From positions 1,914,011-1,978,010 of the forward strand of contig NC_019977.1 in NCBI RefSeq assembly GCF_000328665.1: DNA of 64,000 bases, given 5' to 3'. The stretch's first letter is position 1. Every line of letters starts with the position of its first letter. Shown in pieces: positions 23,674-29,180 of this stretch. Below the pieces are notes generated by a model. It made no database searches and was not told the DNA's origin. It worked only from the letters and a program-made list of their open reading frames with translations. The translations under genes and the position numbers were made by a program. The DNA is from Methanomethylovorans hollandica DSM 15978. Lineage in GTDB: Archaea > Halobacteriota > Methanosarcinia > Methanosarcinales > Methanosarcinaceae.

Positions 23674-24147
23674 ATGGAAAAAGCTACTTTTGCAGCAGGT
23701 TGTTTTTGGGGAGTAGAGGCAAACTTCAGAAAGGTAAACGGAGTAACAGCAACGGCTGTCGGCTACACTGGTGGCCATGTTCAAGATCCGACATATAAAG
23801 ACGTATGTACCGGAAAGACCGGCCACGCTGAAGCAGTTGACATTCTTTTTGATCCTGAAGTAGTAAGTTATGCACAGTTACTTGAAGTGTTCTGGAAGAT
23901 CCACGATCCAACCACACTAAACCGTCAGGGACCGGATGTTGGCACCCAATACAGATCAGCTATCTTTTACCACAACGAAGAACAAAGATCCATAGCCATT
24001 GGATCAAAGGAAGCAGCACAAAAAACAGGCAAGTTCAAAATGCCTATAGCCACTGAAATTGTGCCTGCATCAACATTCTACAGGGCAGAGGAATATCATC
24101 AGCAATACTTTGAGAAGGGAGGCATAGGGGGATGTATGATCCACTAG
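23674..24147 (+). CDS. msrA: Peptide methionine sulfoxide reductase MsrA
   Basis: This 157 aa enzyme reduces methionine-S-sulfoxide in proteins. The catalytic motif [10 protein letters not shown] is at the N-terminus (Cys near residue 10). [51 protein letters not shown] and YHQQYFEK are the family landmarks, all present. An AGGAGGT precedes the ATG. It is convergent with pyk, leaving two bases between the stops. It is of interest beside the methionine-rich oxidoreductase encoded 1.6 kb away. Confidence 0.96.
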
Positions 24148-25769: not shown

Positions 25770-28700
25770 ATGGTAAAAGCAGTATACGAACTGAACGAAT
25801 TACAGAAAAAAGAGCTTGCCTCCATTTTTGGGGAAGGGGTCAATTTCAAAAGAAAAGAGAGGCACTTTTACACACATGATGTTGGATCTTTGCCGCCTGT
25901 GGTAAAGACATTCCTGGGAAATACACAACCTGCGGCCATAGTCAAGATCAGGGACGAGGAACAGGCTGTAAAACTCATGGAATTTGCCCTCAAATATGAA
26001 ATAGCTATTGTGCCGCGTGCAGGTGCATCCTCAGGCTACGGCGGTGTAATACCCACTAATGGAGGCATCATTGCAGATGTCACTCCCATGCGCAAGATCA
26101 TAAGCATCGATAAAGAGAACATGAAGGTAACAGTGGGTGCAGGCATAGTATGGGAAAAACTGGAATCCAAGCTGAATAAGCAGGGACTTGCAGCACAAGC
26201 TGTACCTTCCAGCGCAATGTCGGCCACAGTGGGAGGATGGCTTGCGCAGAACGGCCTGGGATACGGCAGCTATGAGTATGGCTGGTCACAGGATACCATG
26301 GAAAGCGCCAGGGTAGTGCTTCCCAATGGGGAAATAAAAGACTTCCAAGGCGACGAGCTGCAGAAGATCGTGGGCACCATGGGTACCATAGGCATCATCA
26401 CACAGGTCACTCTAAAAGTAAGAGAATTTGAGAAGACAGCAGCTATATCTGCAAAGTTCCCGGATGCAGCTAGCATGCAGAAAGCTATCACACTTATCAG
26501 AGAGCGTAATGTACCTCTGTGGTCGGTATCGTTCATCAACCCAGAATGGGCACAGATGAAGAACAGGGCACCTCCAAAAACACATTACGGAGAACCGGTG
26601 GAAGAACACAGGCCAGAACTGCCTAATGCCTACATCTGTAACTTCGCCTATCCTGGATCCAGGGACGTTAATGCTCTCAAAGATATAATTATGGAGGCAG
26701 GTGGAGAAATATTGCCTGATGAGATAGCTAAGCATGAGACAGAAGAATGGTTCAGGTCCATGAAGGTCAAAAGACTGGGTCCGTCGTTCATTCCCGCAGA
26801 AGTGATAGTGCCTGTGTCCAGCATTGGAAAGGTTTTTGACGAAATCAATAAAAAGATAGGTATTACAGTGCTTGTGGAAGGTATGGTTGCCAAGGGGGAC
26901 GAGGCTGTACTGCTGTGTTTCATGCCGCACTCAGAACTTTCCTTTAAGTTCAACATGGCATTTCCACTCGCTATCAGTATAGTGAAGATCGCAGAAGCAA
27001 ACGGAGGACGCATCTACACATCTGGGCTGTACTTTGCAAAAAATGCTGACAAAGTTTTTGGAGATAAACTGACCAAGATCCAGGAACTTAAAAAGCAGGT
27101 TGATCCAAAGGACATAATGAACCCTGAAACACTAACCGGAAAATCCCTGATGAAAACAGGGCTTTCCATGGCAAAGAGCTTTGAGCCCCTGGCCCGTTTC
27201 GTAGGCAACCGGTCAGGAGTCGGTACACATGAGTTCACTGACCAGAAAGGCATACCTGGCGAGGTGTTATCACATGCCTACACCTGTGCCCAGTGTGGTT
27301 ATTGTGTGCCAGAGTGTGACCAGTATTACGGAAGGGGCTGGGAATCTCAGTCCCCTAGAGGAAAGTGGTTCTTCCTGAAAGAATATATCGCAGGCAGGGT
27401 GGAGCTGGATCAGGAGCAGGTGGATACCTTCCTGGCCTGTACCACTTGTGAGATGTGTGACCATAATTGCCAGCTTGACCTGCCTATAGAGCGTTCCTGG
27501 ATGACACTCAGGGAGAACTTTGTCCAGAAGAAGAAGATGATGACCATCCCGCCATTTGAGATCATGGCACAGAGCCTTGAAAAGGAAAGGAATATCTGGG
27601 CCAATTACAGAAAAGATAGGGATGGCTGGCTGCCCAACGATATCCGTGCCAAGATAAAGGATAAGGCAGAGGTAGCCTATTTTGCAGGATGTACGGCATC
27701 CTTTGTGGAAAAAGATGTAGCTATGGGTGCTGTACGCCTTCTTGACGAAGCGGGTATAGAGTTCACATACCTGGGAGACAAGGAAGCATGCTGCGGCATA
27801 CCTATGCTCGTGGCGGGGAAATGGGACGTCTTCGAGAAGATCATGAAGATGAACACAGCGAACATGCAGAAAAAGGGAGTGAAGACCGTTGTCACTTCGT
27901 GTCCTGCCTGTCTGCTGATGTGGAAAACCCTCTACCCTCAGTGGGCTGAGAAGCTGGGTATGCGATATGACATTGAAGCAAAACATTATTCAGAAGTGCT
28001 GGTGGACAAGCTGGATGTGCTAAAGCCGAAGTTCAAGGTCCCGCTGAACAAGGTTGTCGCGTGGCACGATTCATGTCACATAGGCAGGGCTGGCTCGGGT
28101 GTGTATGAACCACCCCGTGAACTGCTCAAGGCTATACCCGGTGTGCAGTTCAGGGAAATGGAGCATAACAGAGAGAAAGCACTCTGCTGTGGTTCTGTGG
28201 TAACACTTATAGATGAACCTAAAGTGGCCAGTAAGATAGGAAACGTGCGTCTGCAGGAGGCTATTGCCCAGGATGCAGACATCATGGCAGCTCTCTGCCC
28301 ATGCTGCATGGTGCAGTTCAGAATAGCTGCAAGGGATAACAATGTGAACCTGGAGATCCAGGACCTCGGTGCACTTGCAGCCCGCAGCCTGGGATATGAT
28401 ATTCCTGATACCACGAATGCTGCCCTTACTGCCTGGGCAACATTCGACAAGATGATAGACCTCATGTTGCCTGAGAACATGACCGAGATGATGGTCGAAC
28501 TGCTGCCTGATATGATAGAAGCGATGCCTTCATACATGCAGGCAATGATGAAGACAGTCAAATATGTACCAGGCATGGATGCGCTCATGAAGCCCATGAT
28601 GCCGATGATGATGCCTTTGCTCATGCCATCCCTTATGCCGAAGGTCATGCCAAAAATGCTGAAGGCAGTGGAAAAAAGGGTGCCAATGCCGGATTACATG

Positions 28701-28817
28701 CTGGAGCAGATGCCTGACCTCATGCCTGCTGCAATGGCAAACCTGATGCCGAACATGCTTCCGCAGATTGCACCGCTGCTGACACCAAAGATGATAGAGT
28801 ACATCAAGACGCACTGA
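25770..28817 (+). CDS. FAD/Fe-S oxidoreductase, D-lactate-dehydrogenase/HdrD-type fusion with Met-Pro tail
   Basis: The 1015 aa protein joins four parts. An FAD-binding type-4 domain occupies about residues 45-215 (PRAGASSGYGGVIPTNGG) and the matching FAD-oxidase C-terminal domain about 220-460. A ferredoxin-like pair of [4Fe-4S] motifs lies at about 505 (CAQCGYCVPEC) and 556 (CTTCEMCDHNC). Two cysteine-rich CCG domains lie at about 640-720 (EACCGIPM, SCPAC) and 765-860 (ALCCGS, CPCC), as in GlcF, GlpC and HdrD. It resembles GlcD-GlcF and D-lactate dehydrogenases; the substrate is not determined. The final ~121 residues hold about 29 methionines in MPxLMP-like units and match no domain I know. 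Confidence 0.87.
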   Translation: MVKAVYELNELQKKELASIFGEGVNFKRKERHFYTHDVGSLPPVVKTFLGNTQPAAIVKIRDEEQAVKLMEFALKYEIAIVPRAGASSGYGGVIPTNGGIIADVTPMRKIISIDKENMKVTVGAGIVWEKLESKLNKQGLAAQAVPSSAMSATVGGWLAQNGLGYGSYEYGWSQDTMESARVVLPNGEIKDFQGDELQKIVGTMGTIGIITQVTLKVREFEKTAAISAKFPDAASMQKAITLIRERNVPLWSVSFINPEWAQMKNRAPPKTHYGEPVEEHRPELPNAYICNFAYPGSRDVNALKDIIMEAGGEILPDEIAKHETEEWFRSMKVKRLGPSFIPAEVIVPVSSIGKVFDEINKKIGITVLVEGMVAKGDEAVLLCFMPHSELSFKFNMAFPLAISIVKIAEANGGRIYTSGLYFAKNADKVFGDKLTKIQELKKQVDPKDIMNPETLTGKSLMKTGLSMAKSFEPLARFVGNRSGVGTHEFTDQKGIPGEVLSHAYTCAQCGYCVPECDQYYGRGWESQSPRGKWFFLKEYIAGRVELDQEQVDTFLACTTCEMCDHNCQLDLPIERSWMTLRENFVQKKKMMTIPPFEIMAQSLEKERNIWANYRKDRDGWLPNDIRAKIKDKAEVAYFAGCTASFVEKDVAMGAVRLLDEAGIEFTYLGDKEACCGIPMLVAGKWDVFEKIMKMNTANMQKKGVKTVVTSCPACLLMWKTLYPQWAEKLGMRYDIEAKHYSEVLVDKLDVLKPKFKVPLNKVVAWHDSCHIGRAGSGVYEPPRELLKAIPGVQFREMEHNREKALCCGSVVTLIDEPKVASKIGNVRLQEAIAQDADIMAALCPCCMVQFRIAARDNNVNLEIQDLGALAARSLGYDIPDTTNAALTAWATFDKMIDLMLPENMTEMMVELLPDMIEAMPSYMQAMMKTVKYVPGMDALMKPMMPMMMPLLMPSLMPKVMPKMLKAVEKRVPMPDYMLEQMPDLMPAAMANLMPNMLPQIAPLLTPKMIEYIKTH

Positions 28818-29180
28818 GAAATGTAATTTTGCAAATTGAATTTAAAAATGGGATATGTAGAATGAACTTGAACAGGCTTTAATTAAAAAGCTTGTTCTCT
28901 GTTTTGTAGATCTACTCTCCCACATATTTATAATGTTATATAGCATATAAATATATACATATATATACATATTTACACATACATGTATATATGAACATAC
29001 ACGTAGACACATATACAATAAATCTTACTCCATCTATATATACAAATACCTAAACATCTGGAAGAGTTACATTTTATGTAATCGGTTAACATTCAGCTCA
29101 AAGTTAAGCAATTAAACGCTAACTTATAAATAGCCTCAACCTAATATTTGAATAATTAGATTTTATAAGGAGTGAAGAAT
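28818..29180. other. AT-rich intergenic region with broken AT/AC alternating tract
   Basis: About 360 bp without a gene. Bases 28945-29015 are rich in short TA/CA alternations (ATATACATATATATACAT, ACATACATGTATATATG). AAAAAGCTTG and a T-rich stretch near 28885-28905 may end the upstream transcript. A TATA-like CTTATAAATAG at 29122-29132 could drive the small DUF1328 gene. No RNA gene was recognised. Confidence 0.5.

Follow-up and report, generated by a model that had tools for sequence, protein, structure and literature searches.

The 1015-residue FAD/4Fe-4S/CCG oxidoreductase of Methanomethylovorans hollandica DSM 15978 ends in a methionine- and proline-rich domain of about 130 residues, shared by Archaea and numerous bacterial phyla; 13 of its Met are near-invariant, and it includes an unusual predicted Met-Pro tetrad helix. 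The Met/Pro domain sets apart a single-copy family of redox enzymes in anaerobes, including methanogens and ANME archaea. Its putative role is amphipathic docking where electrons leave the enzyme, most likely at a membrane with its methanophenazine or menaquinone pool, and we give this reading a probability of roughly 0.4. If true, it would illustrate a way for CCG flavoenzymes to enter respiratory chains with no membrane subunit. Coordinates are those of the window, the whole 64-kb stretch of DNA that was analysed (Table 1).

Table 1. Parts of the oxidoreductase gene in window coordinates, with the evidence for each.
Feature	Position	Strand	Evidence
Full ORF, 1015-aa FAD/4Fe-4S/CCG oxidoreductase with C-terminal Met/Pro domain	25770..28817	+	Orthologues align over residues 1-1015
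FAD_binding_4, residues 54-191	25929..26342	+	Pfam PF01565, E=2e-35; predicted fold resembles LDHD and alkyl-DHAP synthase
FAD-oxidase_C-like substrate domain, residues 222-453	26433..27128	+	PF02913, 18.3 bits, under the curated cut-off of 21.2
Two cubane [4Fe-4S] sites (Fer4_17/Fer4_8)	27276..27482	+	PF13534; C506, C509, C512, C516 and C557, C560, C563, C567
Double CCG module, residues 634-880	27669..28409	+	PF02754, two stretches; aligned by residue with EtfD and HdrB
C-terminal Met/Pro helical domain, residues 882-1015 (predicted)	28413..28814	+	29 Met, 18 Pro; alignments; six helices in AlphaFold2
Long helix A, residues 936-970 (predicted)	28575..28679	+	AlphaFold2 and register statistics; Pro 945, 949, 953, 957, 961
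Long helix B, residues 975-1014 (predicted)	28692..28811	+	AlphaFold2 and register statistics; Pro 982, 986, 994, 998, 1002, 1006

The original prediction had drawn attention to a Met-rich tail on this protein, and the count confirmed it. There are 29 Met and 18 Pro in the last 125 residues (891-1015), in stretches such as LMPSLMPKVMPKML (residues 951-964). Against a background of 3.4% Met in the 44 ORFs of the window, the binomial probability of 29 Met in 125 residues is about 1e-16, and the runner-up among stretches of this length in the window contains 11. The start proposed for the tail (28441) was one base late; its codons begin at 28440. On the complementary strand, a 94-aa His-rich open frame (28530-28814) is a shadow of the ATG-CC repeats and not a gene.

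The tail is conserved to its end. Every full-length orthologue among 60 relatives (49-96% identity) aligned through query residue 1013-1015, and in most of them the identity of the tail was at least that of the FAD domain. Orthologues of 81-96% identity share the reading frame, with a dN/dS of 0.02-0.08 in the tail, which is by these comparisons under strong purifying selection. A recent frameshift, raised at the outset as a possible origin, is contradicted by the shared frame, the dN/dS values and the 69 homologues that end in the tail. Low-complexity drift or a frameshift product without function could be read into the repetitive-looking sequence and the open antisense frame; purifying selection and cross-phylum conservation with invariant residues refute it and leave it a negligible probability.

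Profile searches with the tail alone, which had been suggested as a check, found it across phyla. The source genome (two contigs, 2.71 Mb in all) has one copy, 66/393 genomes of the phylum carry the tail, and exactly one copy was found in each of 18 bacterial and archaeal genomes searched; in a sample of Chloroflexi 10/301 genomes were positive, one of these with two copies. The plasmid collection gave no match. A scan of species-representative genomes returned 251 relatives, and our distribution and locus counts rest on the best 80 of these 251. Whole proteins of about 1015 aa ending in the tail are encoded at 69 of these best 80 loci. The archaeal carriers among them included Methanosarcinales and ANME archaea. 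The bacterial carriers, whose full-length homologues have 46-56% identity to the query, included Chloroflexota (Anaerolineae, Thermoflexales), Actinomycetota, Bacillota, Spirochaetota, Planctomycetota, Aminicenantota/Aminicenantes, Zixiibacteriota, KSB1, Coatesbacteria, a Deltaproteobacterium, Zymogenaceae and a Kuenenia-labelled MAG. In all full-length copies seen, the tail formed the C terminus of this FAD_binding_4/Fer4/double-CCG oxidoreductase only. The domain is passed on together with a single subfamily of FAD/4Fe-4S/CCG oxidoreductases, in Archaea and Bacteria alike. One genome (G016) has a 434-aa ORF, transposase-like by eye (L026:133-1437), that splits the orthologue near residue 750-762; both halves remain. 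A decayed tail-coding remnant adjoining an intact NapH-like gene (G025:C6:22207-22539, L191) shows that a Methanosarcina-type genome has recently lost the gene.

Homologues that end right after the CCG domain comprise HdrD-like and GlcF-like proteins, two-gene GlcD/GlcF pairs and fusions of 897-934 aa, the last with 35-37% identity to the query. A maximum-likelihood tree of the core, with the tail left out, placed 39/39 tail-bearers opposite four tail-less fusions across a branch with values of 100/99; the tail-less side itself is joined by long branches. By this phylogeny the tail-less homologues are separate paralogues, and not, as the original prediction had allowed for, the same oxidoreductase without its tail. 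Some archaeal sequences were nested among bacterial ones in the core tree, and the gene has therefore moved between the domains of life. In one archaeon (G068, L186:3977-7047) the gene is split, a FAD and Fer4 ORF overlapping a CCG and tail ORF, with an ArsR gene ahead of them in the operon. This split leaves the tail with CCG and thus ties the Met/Pro domain to the CCG half. A short ORF at L133 resembled another such split but has masked N-runs upstream, and was left out of the split-gene count.

MA4631 is reportedly a D-lactate dehydrogenase of M. acetivorans with experimental links to this activity. A Methanosarcina genome of 5.75 Mb, which we take to be M. acetivorans, carries the orthologue at 5.444 Mb and a two-gene tail-less GlcD/GlcF pair at 5.713-5.715 Mb, where MA4631 is presumably located by its gene number. 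Identity of the oxidoreductase with MA4631 was rejected on map position; MA4631 appears to belong to the tail-less two-gene pair, a separate paralogue.

The domains preceding the tail had been described as those of an ordinary GlcD-GlcF/HdrD fusion. This is partly right: PF01565, PF13534 and PF02754 all score above the Pfam cut-offs. The protein nevertheless has its own branch in the core tree and lies far under the NCBIfam equivalog cut-offs for glcD (93.2 against 567.9 bits) and GlcF (56.4 against 333 bits), as well as those for HdrB (39.8 against 345 bits) and TfrB (137 against 385 bits). Its predicted FAD module shares a fold with LDHD, GlcDF and alkyl-DHAP synthase; the structural match to LDHD spans about 480 columns, and alkyl-DHAP synthase is nearest in sequence to the N-terminal half. 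Residues 386-395 read PHxExxFxFN across the family, and by eye the second His of the H-x-GDGN-x-H metal/substrate motif of the C-terminal FAD-oxidase domain appears to be absent.

The eight cubane cysteines were invariant in 36/36 sequences, as were the CCG cysteines C641/C674/C675/C711/C714 and C769/C806/C807/C843/C846, and two complete Hdr-type CX~35CCX~35CXXC (CCG) cluster motifs are present. Within the CCG module's second CPCC motif lies a further invariant cysteine, C845 (28302-28304). HdrD, HdrBC and HdrDE likewise combine two cubane sites with a pair of complete CCG motifs; unlike these, the query is fused to a VAO-type FAD module and bears the Met/Pro domain. The HdrB family was present everywhere among the relatives surveyed, which made its distribution uninformative. 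No gene for an HdrE membrane cytochrome was found beside the query gene, whose window neighbours are pyk and uvrA, or at related loci. Downstream of the oxidoreductase gene, the intergenic DNA includes an AT-rich (ta)n/(ca)n-like stretch (28930-29020).

SdhE-type CCG membrane anchors, as in 8-methylmenaquinol:fumarate reductase, are a precedent for peripheral anchoring, their CCG module probably reaching the quinone pool without transmembrane helices. The query shows weak CCG similarity to them (13 bits against a cut-off of 500 for NF042965), and the NF042965 model, unlike the query, is without a Met/Pro domain. Among solved structures EtfD (PDB 9ojn, E=9e-37) came nearest to the Fe-S/CCG part (residues 551-873), with HdrB also close. 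EtfD, which carries five transmembrane helices and heme b, is disordered at its C terminus, and its Thr539 and His583 make both CCG clusters non-catalytic (PMC13083937). Where EtfD reads CT and CPHC, the query reads CC and CPAC and so keeps both CCG cysteine sets whole. With Cys and Ala at the places of Thr539 and His583 and both five-cysteine sets intact, the CCG module is therefore Hdr-like and not EtfD-like by sequence, and disulfide chemistry at its clusters is possible. The two proteins also differ at their ends: EtfD has an N-terminal transmembrane region, whereas the query begins with FAD_binding_4 and has a KD19 maximum of 1.42 over the whole protein, and in place of a disordered C terminus the query has a predicted folded domain.

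Calling this region a tail had implied a floppy extension, whereas AlphaFold2 predicted a compact helical domain. The helices (882-898, 901-910, 912-918, 921-932, 936-970 and 975-1014) were the same in the full protein and in the domain modelled alone, which reached a pLDDT of 88.9 and a pTM of 0.77; within the full-length model (pTM 0.85) the region had a pLDDT of 81-91. In these models a conserved, entirely helical domain spans residues ~882-1015, with four short helices followed by two long ones. Both long helices follow a tetrad of a variable polar residue, a hydrophobic residue, Met/Leu/Phe and Pro, i.e. x-φ-[M/L/F]-P. In helix A the four mod-4 classes were 82% Pro, 97% M/L/F, 99% M/L/V/I and a variable class rich in Lys and Asp, and the Pro register of the window sequence was significant by permutation (p=0.003 for helix A, 1.5e-4 for helix B). 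The Pro-rich tetrad stretches are predicted to be helical. Family mean hydrophobicity peaked at 90-100 degrees per residue, as in an amphipathic helix, and in the predicted fold the exposed face of the long-helix pair is polar and variable while the opposite face consists of conserved Met and Leu. The KD19 maximum of the tail (1.1) is below that of a classic transmembrane helix. With no spanning helix in the tail, a peripheral role therefore fits and a spanning one does not.

The view that the tail resembles no known domain was borne out. Searches of the tail against Pfam, NCBIfam, PHROGs and PDB sequences gave chance-level matches only, and Foldseek of the tail model against the PDB and viral models returned nothing with E below 5. 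PDB-sequence matches to Alpha-MPP and SF3B1 (E 0.02-1) were rejected as composition matches. Neither a Met/Pro tail nor an HdrD/FAD fusion was found in the literature searched. Thus the domain, conserved between Archaea and Bacteria, is without a model in Pfam or NCBIfam and without a fold match in the PDB.

What the methionines do can be judged from their replacements. At 27/29 Met positions the family has hydrophobic residues only, the variation being almost entirely among Met, Leu, Ile, Val and Phe, with Leu, Phe, Ile or Val in place of Met at many positions (e.g. 907, 944, 947, 948 and 952). At least 90% invariance was seen for 13 Met in the tail, as against 3/31 in the body of the protein. 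Because the swaps are nearly confined to this hydrophobic set, a hydrophobic role is favoured over copper binding or oxidation buffering. The pattern favours, from the alignment, a hydrophobic surface or groove in which some positions want Met in particular. The earlier suggestion that a Met bristle binds membranes or hydrophobic peptides thus agrees with the substitutions and with the amphipathic helices. Its comparison with the SRP54 M domain did not hold beyond analogy: both have Met-rich amphipathic helices, but 45 tail sequences gave no Pfam match to SRP_SPB, and Foldseek gave no match with E below 1 in the PDB.

Copper binding and oxidation buffering had been offered alongside; the rival reading weighed here also takes in other soft metals and repair of the buffering methionines by MsrA. 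The high Met content and an msrA gene 1.6 kb upstream speak for these ideas, which we consider very unlikely since Met is so often replaced and the family alignment of the tail has no conserved Cys or His. The distance given for msrA (23674-24147) is correct from the gene start; from the tail it is 4.3 kb, and the adjacency does not extend beyond the genus, msrA being nearby in 4/80 loci (best 80 of 251 relatives), all Methanomethylovorans. We therefore rejected msrA as a functional neighbour.

Among the loci compared, no neighbour gene was conserved across all lineages. At 17 Methanosarcina/Methanococcoides-type loci a gene for a NapH-like membrane 4Fe-4S protein lies upstream on the same strand, usually at 74-414 nt; a winged-helix regulator accompanies it there (e.g. 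L100:6271-7233). Nearly all Methanosarcinaceae have the NapH-like gene, several of them without having the Met/Pro domain, and it adjoins the oxidoreductase neither in Methanomethylovorans nor in Bacteria; in the source genome it stands elsewhere (G000:C2:1122668). Its co-occurrence was rejected as a link, being adjacent in two genera and also present without the domain.

Under the docking reading, FAD would oxidise (or reduce) a putative organic substrate, and the two cubane clusters would relay electrons from FAD to the CCG clusters of Hdr type. Positioned beside this electron-exit module, the Met/Pro domain would place the CCG clusters against the membrane by its flexible amphipathic hydrophobic surface, and the clusters could there exchange electrons with the methanophenazine/menaquinone pool. 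A membrane Fe-S protein, such as the NapH-like neighbour in Methanosarcina and Methanococcoides, may be an alternative partner. The domain would thus stand in for the separate membrane subunit that HdrDE uses, or for the part of EtfD that spans the membrane. We favour docking because the tail is conserved, amphipathic and tetrad-built, with the tail-bearers on one side of the tree; because the split gene ties the domain to a CCG half whose motifs are complete and invariant; and because of the NapH-like gene upstream at 17 loci. It is weakened by the moderate hydrophobicity of the tail and the charge of its long helices, by a NapH-like gene that also occurs without the domain and is non-adjacent in Methanomethylovorans and Bacteria, and by the many invariant Met where Leu would suffice for a greasy face. 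Tail-less fusion paralogues have no adjoining membrane gene, so a soluble enzyme of such build is evidently workable. The stronger claim, of a new and ancient fold in which a hairpin of (x-φ-M-P)-tetrad helices with four residues per turn docks an Hdr-type CCG flavoenzyme to membrane or quinone without a transmembrane subunit, is one we regard as doubtful, though possible.

The domain might instead cover the CCG clusters with a flexible, Met-lined groove and there bind, without membrane contact, one specific soluble partner or else a hydrophobic thiol, disulfide or carrier. The binding of signal peptides by the Met-rich SRP54 M domain offers a model by analogy, and the excess of invariant Met over the body goes beyond a simple greasy face. 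Complete CCG motifs, unlike those of EtfD, would permit disulfide chemistry; the domain accompanies the CCG half in the split gene, and the tail-less fusion paralogues, too, are without membrane partners. Such a groove is nonetheless rather unlikely in our estimation, given that the Pfam, PDB-sequence and Foldseek searches matched neither the SRP54 M domain nor any groove domain and that no partner gene is co-conserved across lineages. We hold it unlikely that the long helices serve a structural purpose, packing on CCG/Fer4 or a second subunit to shield oxygen-sensitive clusters and hold a dimer, since HdrD, GlcF and the tail-less fusions manage the same clusters without the domain. The confident compact prediction, both for the isolated domain and within the whole protein (pLDDT 81-91, pTM 0.85 for the latter), would suit this idea, as would one conserved and one variable face, as in a packed interface, and the sporadic redox and stress neighbours, namely superoxide reductase and peroxiredoxin in genome G098 and WrbA at locus L134.

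In four deep lineages, namely Aminicenantes, two Anaerolineae and one archaeon, the gene immediately upstream, in the same orientation, encodes an ArsR-family HTH protein (L113:6985-7314, L114:6908-7267, L119:72-401 and L186:3645-3971), and in all four proteins a Cys immediately precedes a PxR motif. These genes suggest shared redox or metal control. At another locus (L189:205-4212), TusA-, DsrE-, IscS-, IscU-, peroxiredoxin- and superoxide-reductase-like genes, assigned by eye, lie ahead of the oxidoreductase gene, and IscU-like and cysteine-desulfurase-like neighbours were seen at L132 and L120.
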